DNA from: Oscillospiraceae bacterium
GTDB lineage: Bacteria; Bacillota; Clostridia; Oscillospirales; UBA929
Direction: 5' to 3'
DNA length: 36,379 nucleotides
NCBI GenBank assembly: GCA_031253545.1
Contig: JAIRWH010000030.1
Coordinates: 1-36,379 of the forward strand
Shown here: positions 23,345 to 36,096 of the stretch, piece by piece
How the letters are laid out: every line of letters starts with the position of its first letter
How positions within the stretch are numbered: the first letter of the stretch is position 1
Made by a program: the position numbers and the translations under genes
The notes under the pieces: model-generated
Told to the model about the DNA's origin: nothing
The model's database searches: none
What the model saw: only the letters and a program-made list of their open reading frames with translations

Positions 23345-23379
23345 GTATGTAACCGAGACTTACTGAAAGGGTGAACCGC

Positions 23380-24687
23380 ATGGACATTTTCCCCATCGGC
23401 AAAATCGCCTACGAAGGTAGCCGCAGCGCCAACCCGCTTTCCTTCAAGTATTACAACCCCGACGAGCCCATCGCCGGAAAGCCGATGCGCGAGCACCTCA
23501 AGTTCGCGCTCAGCTGGTGGCACACGATGTGCGGCGGCGGCACGGATATGTTCGGCACGGACACGGCCGACAAGCGTTTCGGCGCCACGGAGCCGCTCGA
23601 CATCGCCCGCCGCAAGGCGCAGGCGGCGTTTGAGCTGATGGAAAAACTCAGCGTGGATTACTTCTGTTTCCACGACCGCGACATCGCCCCCGAACAAGGC
23701 TCGCTTGCCGAGAGCAACAAAACGCTCGACGTGATGACCGAAGAGCTTGCCTCCCTTATGAAGGCCACGGGGAAGAAGTGCCTTTGGGGCACGGCGAATT
23801 GTTTTTCCAACCCGCGCTATATGCACGGGGCGGGCACCGCGCCGAACGCGGACGTGTTCGCCTTCGCCGCCGCGCAAATCAAGAAGGCCATTGAGATTAC
23901 CGTGAAACTCGGCGGCAGCGGCTATGTGTATTGGGGAGGCCGCGAAGGCTACGAGACGCTGCTCAACACCGACATGGGCTTGGAGCAAGACAACCTCGCC
24001 CGTTTGCTGAAAATTACGAGCGAATACGGCCGCTCCATAGGCTTCAAGGGCGATTACTACATCGAGCCCAAGCCGAAGGAGCCCACAAAGCACCAATACG
24101 ACTTCGACGCCGCCACGGTAATCGGCTTCCTGCGCCATTACGGGCTGGACGAGTTTAAGCTCAACATCGAGGCCAATCACGCCACCTTAGCCGGGCACAC
24201 GTTCCAGCACGAGCTTCGCACGGCGCGCGTGGCGGGTATGTTCGGCTCCATAGACGCAAACCAAGGCGATATGCTGCTCGGTTGGGACACCGACCAATTC
24301 CCCACCAACGTGTATGATGCCGTATACTGTATGTATGAGGTGCTCAAAGCCGGCGGGTTTACCAACGGCGGCCTGAACTTCGACAGCAAGCAACGGCGCG
24401 GCTCCTACACGCACGAAGACATTTTCCATGCCTATATCGCCGGCATGGACACGTTTGCCTTCGGCCTGCGGGCCGCGTTGCGCCTGATTGAAGACGGGCG
24501 TATAGACGGGTTTACGCGGAAGCGTTACGAAAGCTGGAGCGGCGGTATCGGCAAAGACATCATCTCCGGCAAGGCCACCATAGAGGACTTGGAGCGCCAC
24601 GCGCTTGCTATGGGCGACGTGACCACCAACACCAGCGGCCGCCAGGAATATTTGGAGGCTGCGGTCAACCAGGTGCTGTGGGGGTAA
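23380..24687 (+). CDS. xylA: Xylose isomerase
   Basis: Converts D-xylose to D-xylulose in the cytoplasm using divalent metal ions. The 435-residue protein matches the longer (group II) enzymes. It shows [18 protein letters not shown] with the catalytic His, [29 protein letters not shown] (metal-binding Glu and Lys), [18 protein letters not shown], and [19 protein letters not shown] near residue 290. I choose ATG 23380, with GAAAGG ahead of it, over the GTG at 23371. The 3' end overlaps the convergent esterase gene by 23 nt. No xylulokinase is in the window. Confidence 0.97.
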
Positions 24688-26401
24688 TCTCCATCTCAAA
24701 GGGCGGGGCGGGAAGCCCCGCCTTGTTGCGTATTAGTGTGCCGGAGGGCGTGTCTTCCCACGCGTAGCGTACTGTGTCGCCCTCCACGGCAAAGCACGTT
24801 TCCTTTACGCACTCCACCCTCATCTCGCCCTCGCTGCCGCAGTCGAACACGGCGTATACGCCGCCGCCCGGCTCGCGTTCGCAGCGCAACGGCTGCGGGC
24901 CGAGGTATTGCGCGTCTTTGTCGCCGTACACCTCGTTCATTGCCGCTTGCGCCAAACGCGCGCCCACGCTCTTTTTATCGGACGGGTGCAGGTCGTTCCA
25001 TTCGCCGAGGTCAATGGCCGTGACCATAGCGGTGCGAGGCACGGAAAGGCACCGGCGCTGCTCCTCGCGCAGCTGCGGCCAACCGCTGTCTGTATAGCCG
25101 GGAGCACCGAAATTGGGCAGTTGCACGTACAACACGGGGAAATCGCCTATGCGCCACCTGCGCCGCCAATCGCCCACCATGCGGGCAAACTTGTCTTTGT
25201 AACCGTCGGGCGCGTGGGTGTTGCTCTCGCCCTGATACCAGAGCGCGCCCCTGACGGGAAACGCGGCGGCGGGGGCGAGCATGCCGTTGTACAGCCCCGC
25301 CGGCTCTTTTTCAAACATCACGGCTTCCCGCAGCGGCTCGCGCGCCGCGATGCCCGGCTGAAAACGCCAACCCGACGTGAGGTCAATTACGCAACCGTCT
25401 ACGGTGAGGGCGTAGGGCTTATCCGGCACAAAGCCGCCCACATCGCGGCAGCTCACCACGCGCAAAAGCAGGTTGTTGCGTCCGGCTTTGAGAAGGCCTT
25501 CGGGCACATTGTAGCGGCGCGGGGGGTATTGGTAGGTAATCGCGCCCACGAGTTGGCCGTTTATATATGTTTCGTCGGAGTCGCGTATGCAGCCGAGCTC
25601 CAATAAGCCCGGCCTGCCCGCCTTGTCGGGGGGGCAGTCGAAGTCCGCGGTAAACCAAAACGAGCCGTTTTTGCGCAGGTCGGGGTGGGCGCCCCAATCG
25701 GCGGTGGGGTTTATCGGCTGCCACAGCGCGCTGTCGGGGTTTTTTTCCTCCGCCCGGAGCGCGGCGTGCCAAGCGCGTTCGCGCTCCGCGTCCGCGTCTT
25801 GCGCTTTCTTCACGTCTTGCGCGTTTTTATACGCGGATTGCCCGCCGCCTTCGGGCATCCACGCCTCCACGGTGGAGCCGCCCGCCGCCGCGTTGATTAA
25901 GCCGATGGGCACGTCATACCGCCGCCGCAGCTCTTTTGCGAAAAAATACGGCACGGCGTAAAAACGCTCTATGCTTTGCGGGGTTACCGCTTCCCAGCTT
26001 TCGTTTGAGCCATAGTCGTCGGCGGGAGCCTCAAAGAGGAAACGGCGCGTGACGAGAAACTGACGTATCAGCCCGTCGGAAGCCCGCGCTTCCTCCGGGG
26101 TGCGCCACACTACCCTGTGCATGGGCATTTCCATGTTGGATTGCCCGCCGCACAGCCACACGTCGCCCACATACACGTCTAAGAGGGCGACATCGCCCGC
26201 CACCAATGTGTGCGGACCTCCCGCCCGCGCGGGCGGCAGTTCGGCCGCCCATTTGCCGTCCATGCCCGCCGCCGCCTCGCATGAATTGCCGAGGAAGCCC
26301 ACGGTCACTTTTTCGCCCGGGTCGGCTTTGCCCCAAACCCTCACGGGCGCGTCGCGCTGCAGCACAAGCCCGTGGGAAAACAGGCGCGCGAGGGTAATCA
26401 T
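24665..26401 (-). CDS. SGNH/sialate O-acetylesterase-family carbohydrate esterase
   Basis: Predicted intracellular deacetylase of acetylated sugars; in this locus most likely of acetylated xylo-oligosaccharides rather than sialic acid (inferred from neighbours). The 578-residue protein has an N-terminal beta domain beginning [18 protein letters not shown], the nucleophile block [11 protein letters not shown] with Ser88, the [16 protein letters not shown] block, an inserted jelly-roll-like domain (~residues 215-330), the block WYQGESN, and the catalytic DLHPSDK near the C-terminus. There is no signal peptide. The start overlaps the GH3 stop by four bases, so it is the last gene of the xylan operon. 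Confidence 0.9.
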
Positions 26402-28488
26402 AGCGTGATTGCCGCTTTGAGCGGCGCTTGGCCATATAGCCGCACACTCTGCGCGTCGGGCCGGCAGAAGCCCGCGTGGAGCGTGTGTTCGCCCCGGACG
26501 ACCACGGGGTCGCCGTGTTCGTTATATCGGGCGAAGGCGTTCGCGGCGAGTGTGACGGTTACTTCCCGGCTCTCGCCGGGCGACAGCGCCACGCGCGCGA
26601 ACCCCGCCAAGGCGTGAATCTCCCTTTGCCCCGGGGTTTCCACATATATTTGCAGCTTTTCGGCGGCTTTCATCTCGCCCGTGTTTTTCACGGTGACAAC
26701 GCATTTATGCTCGTCCGCATCCAAGCCGGACAGCTCGAAGGAGGAGTAGCCCAAGCCGAAACCGAAGGGGAAGAGCACCTCGCCCTTGAAGTAGCGGTAT
26801 GTGCGGTTTGCCATGCCGTAATCGCAAAAGTCGGGCAAGTCGGCCGTGCTTTTGTAGAACGTGACGGGCAGCTTGCCTTCGGGGCTGTAACGCCCGAACA
26901 CGGCATCCGCGATGGCTTTGCCGCCGCAAGCGCCCGGGTAAAACGCCTGAATGATGGCCGCGAACTTGCCTTCCAAGCCGTCGAGCGTGAGCGCGCTGCC
27001 GGAGAGCAGCACGAGTATTACGGGTTTTTCGCCCGCGGCGGCGAGTACCTCGCGCATGAGGGCGCGTTGGGAATCGGGCAGCTCCAAGCCGGGCTTATCA
27101 CCGCCCACGGAGAAGCTGCTCACGTCGTTTTCCTCGCCCTCGATATCCGCGTCTAAGCCGAGGCAGAGCACAACCACGTCGCTGCGCTTGGTTACCGCGC
27201 GCGCCTCGGCCAATCTATCGCCCTTTTCGCTCAACCCGGAGACGCTTTCCTTATACAAATGCGCGCCTTCGGCAAACAGCACGCGCGCGCCGAGCGGCTC
27301 TATTAACCTGCGGAAACCCGTGAGCGGTGTGATGTGGGCGGAAGCGCGGCCCTCGTAGTTGCCTTGCAGGGCGCGGCGGCTGTCCGCGTTGGGGCCGATG
27401 ACGCCGAGGGTGGTTACGGCTTGCCTTTGGAGCGGCAAGATGCCGTTGTTTTTCAGCAGGCAAAGCCCGCGCCGCGCCGCTTCCAAGTTTAGTTCCCTGT
27501 GCGGGCAGCTGTCCACGGCTTCAAAAGGCGTGGACACATATTCCTCGTTTTCCGGCGCGCCGAGCAGCCCCAGACGCATGCGCGCCGTGAACAGGCGGGT
27601 GACCGCCGTGTCTATCTGCGCCTCGGTGAGCATGCCGTCTTCCACCGCGCCCTCGCAATGGCCGAAGAGGTTGCCGCAGTTTACGTCGCAGCCGTTTTCC
27701 ACGGCAAGGGCCACGGATTCGCGGGGTGTGCGCGTGACTTTGTGGTGTTCGTGGAAATCTTTGACGGCCCAGCAGTCGGACACCACATGGCCGTCGAAGC
27801 CCCACTTGCCGCGCAGTATGTCGCGCAGCAACAGTTTGGAGCCGCAGCAAGGCTCGCCGAGCGTGCGGTTATACGCGCCCATCACGGCCTCCACCCGCCC
27901 CTCGCGCACAGCCGCCTCAAAAGCGGGCAGGTAGGTGTTCCAAAGGTCATACATATCGCACTCGGCGTTAAACTCATGGCGCAGGCTTTCCGGGCCGGAA
28001 TGTACGGCGAAGTGCTTGGCGCAGGCCGCCACCTTCAAGCCGTTGCGGTCGGGGCCTTGCAGCCCGCGTATGAACGCCACTCCGAGGCGCGCCGTGAGAT
28101 ACGGGTCCTCGCCGTAGGTTTCGTGGCCGCGCCCCCAGCGCGGGTCGCGGAAGATATTGATGTTTGGGCTCCAAAACGTCAGCCCTTTGTATATGTCGCG
28201 GTCGCCTTCCTCGACAAACGCGTGGTATTTCGCGCGCGCCTCCGTGGATATGGCGCTTGCCACCTCGTATAAAAACTCTTCGTCCCACATGGCGGCAAGG
28301 CCGATTGCCTGGGGGAACATCGTGGCTGTGCCGGAGCGCGCCACGCCGTGCAGGGCTTCGTTCCACCAGTTATAGGCGGGTATATCGAGCCTCGGCACGG
28401 CGGCGGCTTTGTGGAGCATCTGCCCCACCTTTTCGGAAAGCGTCAGCTCGGCCGTGAGCGCCGCCGCCTCTTTTTTGATGTCGTACAC
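26398..28488 (-). CDS. Glycoside hydrolase family 3 (beta-xylosidase / beta-glucosidase)
   Basis: The 696-residue exo-acting hydrolase should release xylose (or glucose) from the non-reducing end of oligosaccharides. It has the GH3 N-terminal barrel with NWWNEALHGVARSG and FWSPNINIFRDPRWGRG, the KHFAVHSGPES loop, and the nucleophile Asp in HVVSDCWAVKDFHEHH (~residue 237). The SDC form is common in GH3 beta-xylosidases. A C-terminal alpha/beta sandwich and a fibronectin-III-like domain follow. There is no signal peptide, so it acts on imported substrate. The start is GTG 28488 with AAGGGGG eight bases upstream. A strong hairpin separates it from the binding-protein gene. Confidence 0.94.
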   Translation of the reverse strand: MYDIKKEAAALTAELTLSEKVGQMLHKAAAVPRLDIPAYNWWNEALHGVARSGTATMFPQAIGLAAMWDEEFLYEVASAISTEARAKYHAFVEEGDRDIYKGLTFWSPNINIFRDPRWGRGHETYGEDPYLTARLGVAFIRGLQGPDRNGLKVAACAKHFAVHSGPESLRHEFNAECDMYDLWNTYLPAFEAAVREGRVEAVMGAYNRTLGEPCCGSKLLLRDILRGKWGFDGHVVSDCWAVKDFHEHHKVTRTPRESVALAVENGCDVNCGNLFGHCEGAVEDGMLTEAQIDTAVTRLFTARMRLGLLGAPENEEYVSTPFEAVDSCPHRELNLEAARRGLCLLKNNGILPLQRQAVTTLGVIGPNADSRRALQGNYEGRASAHITPLTGFRRLIEPLGARVLFAEGAHLYKESVSGLSEKGDRLAEARAVTKRSDVVVLCLGLDADIEGEENDVSSFSVGGDKPGLELPDSQRALMREVLAAAGEKPVILVLLSGSALTLDGLEGKFAAIIQAFYPGACGGKAIADAVFGRYSPEGKLPVTFYKSTADLPDFCDYGMANRTYRYFKGEVLFPFGFGLGYSSFELSGLDADEHKCVVTVKNTGEMKAAEKLQIYVETPGQREIHALAGFARVALSPGESREVTVTLAANAFARYNEHGDPVVVRGEHTLHAGFCRPDAQSVRLYGQAPLKAAITL

Positions 28489-28572: not shown

Positions 28573-30297
28573 TTAACCGTTTGCCGCGTCCCACTTCTGG
28601 GTGCGCTCTTCTATGATTGCCCGAACCCCGGCAAGCATCCATTCCTCGTAACCGTCGTCGTAGACCTTGTCGAAGTTTGCCACGCTCGTGGCTATGGCGT
28701 TGGTAAGGAAGCTGTCGCGCTTGTCTTTCAGTAAGGTGCCCATGCCGGACTCGGCCGTTACCGCGCCCAAACCGGGCGAGGGATAGTAGTAGCCGTTGGC
28801 CGCGCCTTTTTGCATGGCGTCTTTCACTATGTCGGGGGAAATGCCCGTGTACGCGCCTCCCGCGCCGGCGAGCGCCGTGAGCGGGTCGCCCGGCCAATAG
28901 CCGTTGAGCACGATGAGCTGGTCAAGGCCGGTGGGGGAGTTGATGATGTAGGGCAGGAGGTCGGGGGTGTCGTTGTTGATGGTAATCAGGGAGAAATTGC
29001 CCTCGTCGTCTATCTGGTAGTTTTTGCCTTCCGTGCCGAGCTGGAGGTATACTATGACATCGGGGTGGCAGAGCCAGTCCACATAGACTATGGAAGCCAA
29101 GGGCTCTTTGTTGGTCTTGGGGAAGAAGATTTTGCGGTCTACGATTTCCATGTTGAACTTCTTGGTGACGCCGGCATCGTTTTTAAACGGGTCAATGGCG
29201 ATGAACCCGGCATCCGGGCCGTTGTTCGCCATAATGGTTACGTTGATGCCCGAACCGGAGCCGCGGAAGGGGTAATCCCAGTTGTGGATAAACGAACCAA
29301 CGAACCCGGCGCGCAGCATATCTTCCTCGGGGGTTTGGTCGCTGCCGGAGCCGTACAGGCCGAAGTCTTGCCAAATCAGTTTGTCGTTGTACCATTTGTT
29401 CAGCAGGCGCACGGATTCTTTGTAGTTGGGGTAGCAGACGTGGCGGTCGTCGTAGCCGAGGATATACTCGTCTCTCGCGCTCATCTCCGGCGGGAAGAAC
29501 GACACGGCGAGGTTTTCCGTGCGCCAGCCCACGTCTGTGCTGAGCACGAAGGGAACCATCTGCGCCGCGTCCGCGCCGAGGAGCAACTCGGCGTTGTCGC
29601 GGAAGGCCACGAGCATATTCTCGAACTCTTGCCGCGTGGTGGGTTCGGGGAGGTTGAGCTTGGCGAGCCAGTCGGCGCGAGCGAAGGTGTTCATGCGCTG
29701 CGTAACGGTGCGCCTGCCCTCAATCCAGAATATTTGCTTGGTGTCGGGGTCCTGCGAATAGTGGAGCAGGTATTCGCCCAATACGTCCCACATATAGGTC
29801 AGCTGGTCTTTGTGGCCGTCTATGTACGGCTGCAAGTCCCACACGGCATCCATGTCGGCGTATTGCTGAATGGCCGCGTGGTTGTAGGTGACGCAGACAT
29901 CGGGGGCGGTATTGGCGGCAAGCCATGTGGGGATAATCTCGTCTTCCGGGAAGCGGGGCATGGGCACGAACTCTTTGATGCGCACGTTGCAGTCGTTGAG
30001 GAACTTGTCTTTCGCCCAGTCGGTGTACATGTTGTCGTGCGCGTCGGTGCGCCCTGTGCCGGAGCTGCGCTCGAAGATTTGCACGGTAATCTCTTTCGTT
30101 TCATCGAAGCGCCAGTAGCCGTTGACGAACTGCGCGCCCTCGATGGCGGAGGCGGGGGGCGCGTCGGAAGGGGTGGTTGACGGCGACAAGATGGGGCTGG
30201 ACGGGGACGGGTCCTCCGGCGGGGCGAGCGAAGTGCTTGTGCAGGCCGCGAGGACGAGCATGGATAGAGCCAAGAGAATGGTGAGCGCCTTTTTCAT
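28573..30297 (-). CDS. Extracellular solute-binding lipoprotein of a sugar ABC transporter
   Basis: This is the substrate-capturing component of the importer made with the two permeases upstream. The 574-residue protein has the type II signal peptide MKKALTILLALSMLVLAAC with the lipid-anchored Cys, a short Ser/Pro stalk, and a large family-1-type binding fold resembling the long LplA-like proteins (NTAPDVCVTYNHAAI region near 130). Aromatic residues suited to stacking on sugars are frequent. AGGAGG precedes the ATG. Genomic context suggests xylo-oligosaccharides bearing (methyl)glucuronic acid as ligand; this is inferred, not read from binding residues. Confidence 0.92.
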   Translation of the reverse strand: MKKALTILLALSMLVLAACTSTSLAPPEDPSPSSPILSPSTTPSDAPPASAIEGAQFVNGYWRFDETKEITVQIFERSSGTGRTDAHDNMYTDWAKDKFLNDCNVRIKEFVPMPRFPEDEIIPTWLAANTAPDVCVTYNHAAIQQYADMDAVWDLQPYIDGHKDQLTYMWDVLGEYLLHYSQDPDTKQIFWIEGRRTVTQRMNTFARADWLAKLNLPEPTTRQEFENMLVAFRDNAELLLGADAAQMVPFVLSTDVGWRTENLAVSFFPPEMSARDEYILGYDDRHVCYPNYKESVRLLNKWYNDKLIWQDFGLYGSGSDQTPEEDMLRAGFVGSFIHNWDYPFRGSGSGINVTIMANNGPDAGFIAIDPFKNDAGVTKKFNMEIVDRKIFFPKTNKEPLASIVYVDWLCHPDVIVYLQLGTEGKNYQIDDEGNFSLITINNDTPDLLPYIINSPTGLDQLIVLNGYWPGDPLTALAGAGGAYTGISPDIVKDAMQKGAANGYYYPSPGLGAVTAESGMGTLLKDKRDSFLTNAIATSVANFDKVYDDGYEEWMLAGVRAIIEERTQKWDAANG

Positions 30298-30347: not shown

Positions 30348-31217
30348 TCAGCCTTTTTCCGAGCCGAGCGTAACACCCGCCACAAAGTAACGCTGCAGCC
30401 ACGGATAGACGAGGAGGATGGGTATGGTGGCGAACATGACCGACGCCATTTTGGCGGTTTCGCCGATGCCTATCACGTCGGGCATATCGGTGGGGTCGAG
30501 CGACTGCAACCCGCGGGTGAGGTTATAGAGAAGCAGCTGGATGGGGAAATACTTCTTTTGGGTCATGTCGAGGAAGTAGAGCGCGTCGGTGTAGCTGTTC
30601 CAGCGACCCACGGCGTAAAAGAGCGCGAGGGTGGCGATGACGGAGGTGGAGAGCGGTATGTAGATACTCACGAGCACGCGTATGGGCCCGGCGCCGTCTA
30701 TCTCCGCCGATTCGCGCATACTGTCGGGTATACCGTAGAAGAAGCTGCGCATGATAATGGTGTTGAATATGGAAAGGCAGTAGGGGATAATAAGCACCGG
30801 CCATGTGTTGAGCAGACCCACGTCTTTCAGGAGGAGGTACATGGGGATGGTGCCCGCGCCGAAATACATGGTGAAGATGATGAACGTATTGAAGAAGCCC
30901 CGCCCTTTGAGTTTGTCGTAGATGAGCGGGAAAGCCGTCATGGTGGTCATTACGAGCGAGAGCAGCACACCGAGTACCGTGATGAGCGCCGTCCACCAGA
31001 GGGAGCGCGTAAACGCGCTGTCGCGGAGGATGGTTTGGTAGGCGATTACGTTGGTGCCCTTGGGCACGAGGAAGACCTCCTTGCGCATGAGGAACTCGCC
31101 GCCGGAAAGCGAGCGGGCGGCTATGTTTACCATAGGCAGCACGCAAATCAGAGCCACGAGCAGGCAGATAAACGCGATTATGAGGTCTGTGAACTTGGTG
31201 GCTTTGGACTTAATCAT
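30348..31217 (-). CDS. Sugar ABC transporter permease, LplC/MalG type
   Basis: Membrane permease of 289 residues with six predicted helices. The N-terminus (FTDLIIAFICLLVALICVLP) is the first membrane helix. The cytoplasmic EAA loop is ESAEIDGAGPIRVLVSIYIPLS near residue 190, which contacts the ATPase. The C-terminus LQRYFVAGVTLGSEKG is the usual ending of the LplC group. It follows the LplB-type gene by 16 nt and precedes the binding-protein gene. No ATPase is encoded here; such systems usually borrow a shared MsmK/MsmX-type ATPase. Confidence 0.94.
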   Translation of the reverse strand: MIKSKATKFTDLIIAFICLLVALICVLPMVNIAARSLSGGEFLMRKEVFLVPKGTNVIAYQTILRDSAFTRSLWWTALITVLGVLLSLVMTTMTAFPLIYDKLKGRGFFNTFIIFTMYFGAGTIPMYLLLKDVGLLNTWPVLIIPYCLSIFNTIIMRSFFYGIPDSMRESAEIDGAGPIRVLVSIYIPLSTSVIATLALFYAVGRWNSYTDALYFLDMTQKKYFPIQLLLYNLTRGLQSLDPTDMPDVIGIGETAKMASVMFATIPILLVYPWLQRYFVAGVTLGSEKG

Positions 31218-31233
31218 GTAACATCGGCCTCCC

Positions 31234-33228
31234 TTATATCACGCCGCGTTCGCCGAAGCGCTTGGCGGTGAAGTTGGCGGCGAAGAGGAACACAAGACAG
31301 ACCACGGACTGGAATATGCCCACGGCGGCGGTGATGGAGTATTGCTGCGCCGTTAGGCCGCGCAGGTAGACGAAGATGGAGATGTTGTCGGAAACTTGCT
31401 GGACGAAAGCGTTGCGCAGGGCGAAGGCGCGCTCGAAGTCGCTGCCGAGGATGCCGCCCATGCGCATGATGAAGAGGATGACGATGGTGGAGCGCAGCCC
31501 GGGGAGCGTGATGTGCCAGATTTTGCGCCAGCGGCCCGCGCCGTCTACCACGGCGGCCTCGTAGAGTTCGGGGTTGATGTTGGTGATGGCGGCAAGGTAG
31601 ATAATCGTGCCCCAACCGGCGCCCTGCCATATACCGAGCACCACATACATTACCACCCATTGCGCGTTGATGTTAAACGGGTCTACCGTGGGTATGCGCA
31701 GAGCCTCGAACATGGCGTTTACAAGCCCGTCGGAGGGCCTGAACAGCTGCAGGGCGAGCGAGGCGACGATGACCCACGAGAGGAAGTGCGGCATGTAGAA
31801 GATGGTCTGGGTTACGCGCTTGAAGCGGCGGAAGGAAAGTTCGTTGAGCAGTATGGCCAAGATGACGGGCGCGGGGAAACCGAATATGAGGTCGAGGCCG
31901 TTGAGCATGAGGGTGTTACGCAGGGCTAAGTAGAAATCGCGGGTTTGGAAGGCCTTGATAAACCACTCGAAGCCGTAATTGGAACCCCAAGGCACGTCCC
32001 AGACGGGGATGATGATGTTGTTGATTTTCGCGCCGATTTGGATGTAGAGCATGGGGATATACTTGAAGACGACGAGGTATACGATGGGTGTGAGCAACAG
32101 CAGGTAGAGCGTCCAGTACCTGCGGAAATAGTTGCCCGTCCTGCGGCGGGAGACGGGGTTGAAGGTTTCCGCCACGGAGTCTTTCCAAGTGTAGGCGAGT
32201 TTTTCCGGCTCCACCATGTAGAAGGCGCGCGAAGCCTGCGCGGAGGCGGGCACATAGAGGCGGGTCTCCTTAGCGCGGAAGGCGAGCATGCTCGCGCGGT
32301 TGAACCCGAGCAATACCCAAAGGCCGAGGGTGAGCGCCGTGAAGACGGCGTTGCGGACTATGAGCAGGAAGTAGCCGTTAAAGACGGCGGGGTAGGTGAG
32401 GCGGTAACCGTCTACCACGGTGTTTTCGATTTGCCACTTCAAGAGCTTGGAGCGGTACCACGGGATGAGGACTATGGCGGCGATGAAGAGCAACACCGCG
32501 GACCATATCAGTGTGGTGGCCTCGTTGTAATAGACCTTTTCGGTGAAAGCGGACGGCTGCCCCGTGAGCGCGTTGTAGATGGTCTTTTGCGCCAACGACC
32601 AAAGGTGCATGGTGGGCCTTGTGACGTTGGGGCGGGTGGAGAGGTATTCCCACAGCCTGTCGGAATGTTGGCGCACGGGAATAAGCCCCATCATGCAGAG
32701 GATGGCGAAAGGCACCGCCACCACGACGATTTTGGAGAAGGTGATGTGGAGGAAGTTGCCGGTGAAGCCGGATTTGTACGACCCTTCCCGGTTGCCGCCG
32801 CCGGCGCGTGTCACGCGCGAGGAAATGTATTTTTCCACGGCCACGTTCGACAAGCCGGAGAGCCAATACAGACCCAATGTGCCCACGCTGAGGGCGCTGA
32901 TTTTGAGGAAGAAAAGGGCGGTGGGCAGCAGGCCGCCTTCGTAGGTGAGCTTTTCGCCGTTTACGCGCATATTGCGGACGCGTTCGACGGTGCGTATGGC
33001 GGCGGCAAGCGGGCCGCAGACAAAGCTGAGCGCCGCGGCGGCAATGAGCGCCGGGAGCAGGCCGGGGTAATTCATGGAAACGATGATGGCAAGGAAAAGC
33101 GCGACAGGCGCGGCGGGGAAGAGCAGAAACCCCGATATGCGGCGAAGAATCTGCGCGGGTATGCGGCTTTCGTAGCGCGAATCGCCCGCTTTGTCCATCC
33201 ATTCGCCGCGCGTTAGCTCCTCAGGCAT
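31234..33228 (-). CDS. LplB-type sugar ABC permease fused to an N-terminal membrane module with two DUF898-like repeats
   Basis: From residue ~365 this is a normal LplB permease: RRYWTLYLLLLTPIVYLVVF, KYIPMLYIQIGAK, the pore segments and the EAA loop ELYEAAVVDGAGRWRKIWHI, ending AKRFGERGVI. Usual family members are about 300 residues; this one has 664. The extra N-terminal part has about seven hydrophobic segments and two similar blocks, NGEKLTYEGGLLPTALF..LSVGTLGLYWLSGL (~90-128) and DGYRLTYPAVFNGYFLL..LTLGLWVLLGF (~275-311). These resemble the DUF898 pattern of a beta hairpin followed by a TLG-W helix. I use ATG 33228 with GAGGAG six bases upstream; the TTG at 33234 is less likely. The frame is uninterrupted, so the fusion appears real. 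Confidence 0.88.
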   Translation of the reverse strand: MPEELTRGEWMDKAGDSRYESRIPAQILRRISGFLLFPAAPVALFLAIIVSMNYPGLLPALIAAAALSFVCGPLAAAIRTVERVRNMRVNGEKLTYEGGLLPTALFFLKISALSVGTLGLYWLSGLSNVAVEKYISSRVTRAGGGNREGSYKSGFTGNFLHITFSKIVVVAVPFAILCMMGLIPVRQHSDRLWEYLSTRPNVTRPTMHLWSLAQKTIYNALTGQPSAFTEKVYYNEATTLIWSAVLLFIAAIVLIPWYRSKLLKWQIENTVVDGYRLTYPAVFNGYFLLIVRNAVFTALTLGLWVLLGFNRASMLAFRAKETRLYVPASAQASRAFYMVEPEKLAYTWKDSVAETFNPVSRRRTGNYFRRYWTLYLLLLTPIVYLVVFKYIPMLYIQIGAKINNIIIPVWDVPWGSNYGFEWFIKAFQTRDFYLALRNTLMLNGLDLIFGFPAPVILAILLNELSFRRFKRVTQTIFYMPHFLSWVIVASLALQLFRPSDGLVNAMFEALRIPTVDPFNINAQWVVMYVVLGIWQGAGWGTIIYLAAITNINPELYEAAVVDGAGRWRKIWHITLPGLRSTIVILFIMRMGGILGSDFERAFALRNAFVQQVSDNISIFVYLRGLTAQQYSITAAVGIFQSVVCLVFLFAANFTAKRFGERGVI

Positions 33229-33243
33229 ACGCAACTCCTCGAT

Positions 33244-35148
33244 TCATATAGATATTACCCTGCCGGCCTCGTCGGGTATGCCTGAGAGCCGGAAGAAAAA
33301 GGTGTTGAACACATCGCGCCATTGGCGGGCGTTTTCCGCCTGACGGCGCAGCCGTTCGGCCACATTGGCGAATATTTCCGCGTCCACCGCGCCTTCCAAG
33401 GCACCCCAGCGGGCGATGAGCTCCTCGGCCTGCGCCGCGCCCAGAAAGTGGAGGTCGTAGAGGGTTTGCAGGAGGGTTTTGCCGCTTTTGAGCTTGCGGG
33501 TGTATTCCGCGCGGTGGAAAAACAGGAGCAATTCCTCCGGGCAACGGTCTATGTCGCCGTATAGGTCGGCCACGGGCGGGGCGTATTGCAGGGAAAAGCC
33601 CGTGCCCGAAGGGCTTCGGTCTATGCCCACGGCGCGGCGGTCGGCGCGGTGGTAGGTGCCCCACTTGGAAAACTCGTAGCCGAGCGGGTCCGGGCCGTAG
33701 TGGTAGTGGGGGGTCACGAACCAGCACATGCCGAGGGGGGTGGTGTAGTTTTCGTAGATACGGCGCGAATCGAGCAACATATTCTGAACCACGCCGCGCG
33801 CCTCGCCGTTGAACATAAGGCCGCACCATTGGCCGGCTATGTCTTCGGGCGGCGAGAGCGGCGACCAGGCGAGACGGCCGAAGGCGAACAGATTGGCGGC
33901 GGCAAGCGCGTGACCGCACCAGTTTGAGTCGTCGCCGGTGTTGGCCACCCCGGCAATGGAACTGACCGCGCCGCCGGCGAAATCGGCCACGCGGCCTTTT
34001 TCGCGCAGGCGGGTGTCGAAGGTGAGGGTGTCGCTCCAAAGGGGCGCGAGGTAGCATAAATCCACCTGCTGGCCGGTGTATTCGCCGGTGATTTGGAACT
34101 CCAAGGCTTGGGCGGTGTTGGGCATGGCGCCGAGCAGCGGCGATACGGGTTCGCGGATTTGGAAGTCGTAGGGGCCGTTTTTGACTTGCAAGACCACGTT
34201 GGGCGCGAACTTGCCGTCTATCGGGCGAAACGCTTCGTAGGCGGCCTTGGGCCTGTCGGTCTCCCTATCGCGCCAGTCTTGCTTGCAGTTGTATACAAAG
34301 CAACGCCAGAACACGAAACCGCCGTGAGGCGCGATGGCTTTCGCCACGAGGTTGGCGCCGTCGGCTTGGTCGCAGCCGTCGTATTGATACGGACCGGGCT
34401 GGTTTTCGCTGTCGGCTTTGATGAGCACGCCCAGCAGGTCGGGCACATGGGAATAGATGAGGTTCATGCGTTCGCCCCACCAACGGGCGGATTCGCCGCT
34501 GCGCGGGTCGGCGTGGGTGAGGTCGCCGAGCATGACGGGGGAGGCGTAGCTCACGGAGAGGATAAGCCTCACGCCGCAGGAGCGGAATATGGCGGCGAGC
34601 GCCGCCACCTGCGGCAGCAAGTCCGGCGTGATGAGGCGCGCGGCATCGGGCCGCACGTTGACGTTGTTTATCGCCACGGCGTTGACACCCACGGACGCGA
34701 GCAAGCGCGCGTAGTGGTATATGCGTTCCTCGGAATAGGAAATCCCGCCGCCGGAGAAAAAGAGCGAACGGCCGGCGTAGCCGCGCTCGATAGTGCCGTC
34801 CATGTTGTCCCAATGGTTGATGATTCTGTGGGTAAACGCGGGGGCGGAACGCAGGGTGAAACCGTCGGGCGGCTGCTCGCCGCCGCGCAGCAAAAAGCCG
34901 AGAGAGTGCGCGCCGTATAGGACGCCTGTAGCGCCGCCGGACACGCGCCAGACCCCGGCCTGCTTTTCAAGCAGGTAGCCCTCGCCCTCGCCTTCGACGC
35001 GCAAGTCGAAACTCCCGGCCACGGCGAGGTTTTGCCAAAGGTCGGCAAGCTCGGCGCGGGCGGTGTCTTGCGGCGAGAGAGAAACGCGCGCCTGCGCGGC
35101 GCGCGGCAACCAACAATCGGCGAATGAGGTGTTGTTTATATCGCACAC
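33244..35148 (-). CDS. Alpha-glucuronidase, glycoside hydrolase family 67
   Basis: Removes (4-O-methyl-)glucuronic acid from the non-reducing-end xylose of xylo-oligosaccharides. The 634-residue protein is slightly shorter than most GH67 enzymes. It has the family hallmark NHWDNMDGTIERGYAG at ~111-126 and, by alignment spacing, all three catalytic acids: Glu248 in KADSENQPGP, Asp328 in KNGPYDFQIREP and Glu356 in ITGEYTGQ. The 28-residue gap between the last two equals that in Geobacillus AguA. There is no signal peptide, so it is cytoplasmic. The start is GTG 35148. It is the first gene of the six-gene minus-strand operon, divergent from the AraC regulator. Confidence 0.95.
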   Translation of the reverse strand: MCDINNTSFADCWLPRAAQARVSLSPQDTARAELADLWQNLAVAGSFDLRVEGEGEGYLLEKQAGVWRVSGGATGVLYGAHSLGFLLRGGEQPPDGFTLRSAPAFTHRIINHWDNMDGTIERGYAGRSLFFSGGGISYSEERIYHYARLLASVGVNAVAINNVNVRPDAARLITPDLLPQVAALAAIFRSCGVRLILSVSYASPVMLGDLTHADPRSGESARWWGERMNLIYSHVPDLLGVLIKADSENQPGPYQYDGCDQADGANLVAKAIAPHGGFVFWRCFVYNCKQDWRDRETDRPKAAYEAFRPIDGKFAPNVVLQVKNGPYDFQIREPVSPLLGAMPNTAQALEFQITGEYTGQQVDLCYLAPLWSDTLTFDTRLREKGRVADFAGGAVSSIAGVANTGDDSNWCGHALAAANLFAFGRLAWSPLSPPEDIAGQWCGLMFNGEARGVVQNMLLDSRRIYENYTTPLGMCWFVTPHYHYGPDPLGYEFSKWGTYHRADRRAVGIDRSPSGTGFSLQYAPPVADLYGDIDRCPEELLLFFHRAEYTRKLKSGKTLLQTLYDLHFLGAAQAEELIARWGALEGAVDAEIFANVAERLRRQAENARQWRDVFNTFFFRLSGIPDEAGRVISI

Positions 35149-35313: not shown

Positions 35314-36096
35314 ATGACGGATTTTGAGAAACTGTTCCCCGACGTTATACACTGCGCGGGCGGAAAATACGCCCCCGACCGGGTTGTCGCGCAGGGCAGG
35401 GCGGATTGCCACAGCCTGACGTATGCGCTCGGCGGCAAGGGCGTTTACAGCGCGGACGGCGAACGGCTGGATGTGGGGGCGGGGGATATGCTGTACGCGG
35501 CACCCGGTTCCTTTCGTAAGGCGCACATTTACCCCGAAGAACACATGGAGCTGTATGCGGTAAACTTCAAGCTGCGCGCCGGCCAAACGCTGCCGTTTCC
35601 CGCCATAAGCCACCCCGGGTGCCGCCCGGCGCTCATGGAACTCTTCGTCCGGCTGACGCGCGTGTGGGCGGAGAAAGAGCCGTATTTCGCCGTGGAGGCC
35701 CGGGGGCTGACATTGCAAATCATATGCGCATTGGCGCGGGTGCCGGAGTCCGGCGGCGCGGACAGGCGCGCCGACCCGAAAGTGGAGCGCGTGAAGGCCT
35801 ATGTGCGGGAAAACTACACCCAGCCGCTCTCTGTGCCCGCCCTCGCGCAGTTGGTGGGGCTGAACCCCGTGTACTTCGGCTCGCTGTTTATGCGTTCGGA
35901 ACAATGCAGCGTGAAGGAATACATCAACAGGATGAGAATAAACCGGGCGCTGGAAATCCTCCGCACGGAAAACCTGCCCGTGGTGGACGTGGCGCTCGCC
36001 TGCGGCTTCGGCGACGCTTTCTACTTCTCGCGCGTATTTAAGGAGTTGGTGGGCGTGCCGCCCTCCAAGCTCCGGCGCGGCGGTTCCGCGCAGTAG
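35314..36096 (+). CDS. AraC-family transcriptional regulator
   Basis: Likely ligand-responsive activator of the divergent xylan operon. The 260-residue protein has an N-terminal cupin-like sensing domain (~residues 15-100; AGDMLYAAPGSFRKAHIYP) and a C-terminal double helix-turn-helix (~160-255). The first helix pair is around LSVPALAQLVGLNPVYFGSLF and the second around VVDVALACGFGDAFYFSRVFKELVG, the classic AraC signature. AAAGGTGG precedes the ATG by about ten bases. The ligand is probably a xylan-derived sugar, from context only. It may also act on the direct repeats upstream of xylA. Confidence 0.93.
   Translation: MTDFEKLFPDVIHCAGGKYAPDRVVAQGRADCHSLTYALGGKGVYSADGERLDVGAGDMLYAAPGSFRKAHIYPEEHMELYAVNFKLRAGQTLPFPAISHPGCRPALMELFVRLTRVWAEKEPYFAVEARGLTLQIICALARVPESGGADRRADPKVERVKAYVRENYTQPLSVPALAQLVGLNPVYFGSLFMRSEQCSVKEYINRMRINRALEILRTENLPVVDVALACGFGDAFYFSRVFKELVGVPPSKLRRGGSAQ

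Follow-up and report, generated by a model that had tools for sequence, protein, structure and literature searches.

A tandem DUF898 module fused to an LplB-type permease in a probable aldouronate importer of gut-type Clostridia

Related importers and the DUF898 family

The aldouronate utilization cluster of Paenibacillus sp. JDR-2 combines a GH67 enzyme with an ABC transporter (PMC4765114). In the window (the whole stretch of 36,379 nucleotides that was analyzed) GH67 is likewise encoded together with an ABC importer, here one that probably takes up aldouronates; in the passages considered, the description of the JDR-2 cluster makes no mention of a DUF898 fusion, the loci being compared by description (PMC4765114). 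The alginate importer AlgM1-AlgM2/AlgS/AlgQ2 (PDB 4tqu) has in common with the locus a permease that aligns end to end, an AlgQ2-like binding protein and a uronate-oligosaccharide context. However, AlgM1 has approximately 300 amino acids (aa) and no DUF898 module, whereas the permease gene of the window encodes 664 aa. Accessory domains located N-terminally to an ABC importer permease have a precedent in GlnPQ-type importers, but the fused parts are substrate-binding domains in that case and DUF898 in the window (PMC8025302).

DUF898 (PF05987) includes E. coli YjgN and small clostridial and enterococcal proteins, e.g. E. faecalis OG1RF_10877, whose S-x-F-D-G start, W-x3-HT(V/I)(D/E)G-x-RL hairpin and TLG(I/L)Y helix recur in both DUF898 units of the fusion. 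The family is widespread and, to our knowledge, has no known functional mechanism. A low-biofilm transposon mutant has been reported for it in E. faecalis. The DUF898 members sampled elsewhere either stand alone or are linked to parts other than permeases, in contrast to the junction with a permease found here. The fusion also differs from stand-alone members in that each unit's initial helical part has grown into two full membrane helices, and a loop of about 51 residues, predicted to lie outside, has been added to unit 2 compared with the small proteins. Tandem DUF898 plus LplB constitutes a new domain architecture and a rare functional context for DUF898.

A duplicated DUF898 module fused to an LplB-type permease

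The fusion gene (31234..33228, minus strand) is a single open frame of 664 codons' worth of protein (664 aa) that starts with an ATG at 33228, immediately preceded on its 5′ side by the ribosome-binding site 'gaatcgaggagttgcgt', and stops at 31234-31236. Two Pfam domains exceed their curated cut-offs. BPD_transp_1 covers residues 450-657 (E=1e-14, 55.1 bits, cut-off 26.4), and the closest solved protein, AlgM1, aligns over residues 368-663 (E=3.6e-63), which bears out the initial annotation of an LplB-type permease, here delimited as residues 367-664 (31237..32130, minus strand). Because these alignments cover residues ~367-664, nothing is missing from the permease core, and the ~365 residues ahead of it are additional. 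The typical LplB length of ~300 residues is also exceeded in the two relatives described below (653 and 722 aa), and the excess corresponds to the added module.

The second domain, DUF898, spans residues 42-330 with 30.7 bits against a gathering cut-off of 28, so that the suspected DUF898-like nature of the N-terminal part was recovered by the profile search. Unit 1 (residues ~17-141; 32806..33180, minus strand) has an SxxY/F start, two membrane helices, an NGEKLTY hairpin (residues 90-96; 32941-32961) and VGTLGLY at residues 115-121, with TLGLY at 32866-32880. Unit 2 (residues ~153-325; 32254..32772, minus strand) has an SGFTGNF start, two membrane helices, a DGYRLTY hairpin (residues 273-279; 32392-32412) and ALTLGLW at residues 298-304, with TLGLW at 32317-32331. 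The motif (N/D)G-x-(K/R)LTY proposed initially is therefore present in both blocks and the second motif holds for block 1, while block 2 reads ALTLGLW and not (V/L)(G/T)TLGLW. Across the three fusions, both units share one layout: their beginning resembles that of stand-alone DUF898 proteins, most of them reading S-x-[FY]-x-G, and it is followed by two membrane helices, a hairpin of the form (V)xG-xxL-xY and, in most copies, a TLGL helix.

The similarity of the two blocks was assessed with hhalign. Unit 1 and unit 2 matched small clostridial DUF898 proteins (E=1.3e-10, score 58, and E=5.5e-14, score 76, respectively) and each other (E=2.3e-8, score 47; mean 10.7 and maximum 16 in 100 column shuffles). 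The controls, i.e. 100 column-shuffled versions for each comparison and windows taken from the permease, did not exceed 18 and 13, respectively, against real scores of 47-76. Stand-alone DUF898 proteins from across Clostridia align with fusion residues ~240-323. The front half of the protein thus consists of genuine duplicated DUF898 units, as had been supposed, fused to an otherwise normal LplB-type ABC permease. A linker (residues 326-366; 32131..32253, minus strand) joins unit 2 to the permease in all three fusions and is among their least conserved stretches.

Occurrence, origin and selection

Homologous fusions were found in two other species of the same family: JAIRUE010000067 (653 aa, 60% identical to the window protein) and WRIZ01000004 (722 aa, 53%). 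Their DUF898 scores are 37.6 and 28.3 bits (cut-off 28), and BPD_transp_1 is also above its cut-off in both. The co-occurrence with GH67 envisaged in the initial annotation extends to them, the order GH67 – fusion – LplC – binding protein being identical in all three species. Since the window genome is a 96-contig assembly, we considered whether assembly or annotation had joined two genes, or whether one frame yields two proteins. The same fusion with an aligned junction in two independent assemblies refutes a join. An internal translation start producing a normal LplB was likewise rejected: none of the starts near residues 326-352 is conserved in all three fusions, and only the GTG at residue 326 of the window protein is preceded by a ribosome-binding-like sequence. 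We therefore regard an artefact of either kind as extremely improbable.

In searches with a profile of the module, the fusion was present in 3 of 18 genomes of the family and in the same three among 394 genomes of the order; only the window was fused among 391 genomes of the class and among 398 of the phylum. The remaining matches were to DUF898 proteins that lack a permease, and their frames nearly always measured 90-180 aa. Longer permease-free frames (751 aa in genome G151, 302 aa in G636, 453 aa in G480) contain repeats of DUF898 alongside zinc-ribbon-like or different non-permease segments. The long, different C-terminal part of the 751-aa frame (L035, G151:C248) resembles Sel1-like repeats by eye. 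When 85,000 species genomes were scanned for a pattern, an approach that relies on conserved stretches and would miss distant fusions, the two relatives were the sole fusions returned beyond the window. No fusion was found on the viral contigs of IMG/VR, and plasmids gave no match. In IMG/VR, 46 viral or prophage contigs (L085-L130) carry a small DUF898 gene. Several of these genes lie no more than tens of bases from a contig end, which suggests either cargo or a host gene located at the prophage boundary.

A further comparison comes from other GH67 neighbourhoods of the class. Ten of 20 contain an LplB-type permease; these frames are at most 374 aa long (one of them truncated where the stretch ends), and none includes DUF898. 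The pairing of GH67 with LplB is hence ordinary and the fusion is not, in line with the initial view that this is no standard architecture; it was also absent from the other importers sampled.

A tree built from 27 LplB-type permeases places the three fused proteins in a single clade (support 100/98) nested among unfused LplB proteins of the same family. A single origin is accordingly likely, and judging from these sequences the fusion most likely arose once, within one family of related gut-type Clostridia, and has persisted in three or more species. Among unfused permeases, the closest relatives (58-60% identical) adjoin LplC and binding-protein genes, with no GH67 as far as their contigs reach. 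The tree pairs the window permease with that of genome G010 rather than G010 with G007 (95/84), although G007 and G010 belong to the same genus; horizontal transfer of the operon or differential loss may explain this.

Identity among the fusions is 40-49% for the module and 70-73% for the permease, and is especially low in the linker; residues 241-335 are the most conserved part of the module. Between the window and L063, differences at codon positions 1/2/3 amount to 0.38/0.28/0.54 in the module and 0.23/0.14/0.46 in the permease. As position 2 of the module differs by 0.28 compared with 0.54 at position 3, the codon comparison indicates that the module is under purifying selection, looser than that on the permease.

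These data bear on a reading in which lplB acquired, on its upstream side, a duplicated DUF898 gene that either keeps an unrelated membrane function or only anchors or stabilises the protein, with transport unaffected. DUF898 proteins elsewhere work as separate small proteins, and closely related unfused permeases (those 58-60% identical) serve ordinary importer operons. A possible precursor state, in which a stand-alone DUF898 gene lies beside LplB, was looked for at 97 other DUF898 loci with flanks of up to 3 kb in each direction; none showed it, so nothing hints at an older functional tie. On the other side, the module is intact and, by the above comparison, under purifying selection in three diverged species, in a constant operon position. 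We rank such a passive fusion nearly as likely as the accessory role proposed below.

Operon, ATPase and possible role of the module

The gene upstream of the fusion encodes a GH67 alpha-glucuronidase (33244..35148, minus strand; Glyco_hydro_67M E=7e-126, 67C E=6e-81) and is preceded by a divergent gene for an AraC-family regulator (35314..36096, plus strand; HTH_18 E=2e-18). Further genes on the minus strand encode the LplC-type partner permease (30348..31217; BPD_transp_1 E=5e-10), a lipoprotein-like substrate-binding protein (28573..30297), a GH3 beta-glycosidase, probably a beta-xylosidase (26398..28488), and a SASA-family carbohydrate esterase, probably an acetyl-xylan esterase (24665..26401). 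A xylose isomerase gene lies on the plus strand (23371..24687; TIGR02630, 680 bits, cut-off 533). At the thresholds applied, neither Pfam nor NCBIfam yielded a match for the binding protein, which was classified as AlgQ2-like on a weak match (E=4e-5); its identity across the three species is 42-46%, i.e. it is about as divergent as the DUF898 module. From this context we infer a gene set of the kind expected for glucuronoxylan fragments, and the operon probably specifies an aldouronate (glucuronoxylan-fragment) importer served by a shared MalK-type ATPase.

The operon itself showed no ATPase gene. A single MalK-type ATPase gene (OB_MalK match) lies elsewhere, on another contig, in all three fusion genomes, and the window genome contains eight permease matches to the query. 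Sharing of the ATPase is the simplest reading of these observations. The initial annotation had raised the possibility that the module gates the permease, or alters how the permease couples to or recruits the shared ATPase, and cytoplasmic DG-hairpins together with the linker could conceivably reach the coupling region. The EAA coupling motif is nevertheless intact (EAAVVDGAGRWRKIWHITLP, residues 557-576, at 31501-31560), and its core is invariant across the three fusions (pattern EAAxxDGAGxxxxxxxITLP), which speaks against altered coupling. Recruitment needs no special module either, because unfused LplB importers of the same genome would likewise depend on the lone MalK-type ATPase. We consider this group of roles quite unlikely, ATPase recruitment being the least needed.

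The arrangement of the module in the membrane can be proposed from hydropathy, alignment and charge bias. Provided that the LplB core has its usual orientation, with the N-terminus inside, the charge bias favours a topology in which the hairpins and the ends of the TLG helices are cytoplasmic, the TLG helices do not cross the membrane, and residues 53-59 and 186-236 lie outside. In the relative L064, an insertion of ~54 residues where unit 1 has its TLG turn adds a membrane segment; the orientation of the permease is preserved in both proteins only if that helix is non-spanning in the window protein, which supports this placement. The predicted extracytoplasmic loop of unit 2 (residues 186-236; 32521..32673, minus strand), absent from small DUF898 proteins, is a candidate docking surface.

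Structure prediction (AF2) of the full-length fusion reached a mean pLDDT of 50, with moderate confidence only in the unit cores (for unit 1 mostly ~57-84 over residues 31-140); in these cores the TLG helix of either unit is interrupted at TLG. For a small DUF898 protein (28 sequences) the pLDDT was 85 and the last helix is unbroken. As the two models disagree on the TLG helix, the topology stays a proposal. Sequence and fold searches, the latter made with the small DUF898 model, revealed no PDB relative of the module. The full-length model was too weak for fold searching or the derivation of contacts and was set aside; consequently, contacts between module and permease, or loop and binding protein, are predicted by no tool.

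The maltose importer offers a comparison in terms of how such a protein may work: MalF, the permease on the side corresponding to LplB, likewise has extra N-terminal membrane segments and an outside loop, though its sequence match to the fusion is restricted to the permease core. The P2 loop of MalF is much larger than the outside loop of the fusion. It moves around MalE and is quieted when MalE binds (PMC8134467). By analogy with MalF, the role that we find likeliest is bracing combined with binding-protein contact. The best explanation as a whole, to which we assign a probability of roughly 40%, is a genuine single-origin fusion whose accessory module braces the permease and contacts the binding protein of an aldouronate importer. 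The module would be an accessory element in the membrane, located next to LplB, with its DG-hairpins and chain ends in the cytoplasm and its TLG helices dipping into the membrane without crossing it. The ~51-residue loop of unit 2 (residues 186-236) would project outside, where the lipoprotein binding protein would find an additional contact, while the module as such would brace the permease heterodimer, acting neither as a pore nor as an ATPase binder. The imported aldouronates (glucuronic acid-decorated xylo-oligosaccharides, as the gene context suggests) would then be degraded by GH67, GH3, the esterase and xylose isomerase, with ATP hydrolysis supplied by a shared MalK/MsmX-type ATPase.

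The position of GH67 directly upstream in all three fused loci also raises the idea that the module tethers a partner, e.g. a surface xylanase or cytoplasmic GH67, and thereby couples hydrolysis to uptake. For Paenibacillus sp. JDR-2, a functional coupling between the depolymerisation of xylan and the uptake of oligosaccharides has been reported (PMC4765114). Yet the module contains no known protein-binding motif, its predicted cytoplasmic hairpins are short, and GH67-linked importers elsewhere lack it, so we find tethering unlikely. The ten unfused GH67-linked permeases also imply that the module is not required for the aldouronate substrate class.

The accessory role favoured here would add a new type of accessory domain to type I ABC importers. 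A broader and rather doubtful extension is that DUF898 is a membrane accessory domain able to act on ABC importers, and that two units, remodelled to include an outside loop, serve as a novel docking or stabilising subunit built into an oligosaccharide importer; if true, this would give the first functional handle on the orphan DUF898 family. A selected, probably single-origin fusion with a well-understood transporter makes DUF898 function open to direct test.

Both permeases of the G010 importer are enlarged at the N-terminus: DUF898 unit 1 carries an extra membrane insertion of ~54 residues, and the LplC partner (L003 3250-4332, G010:C4) has an N-terminal membrane extension of ~70 residues that by eye is not DUF898-like.
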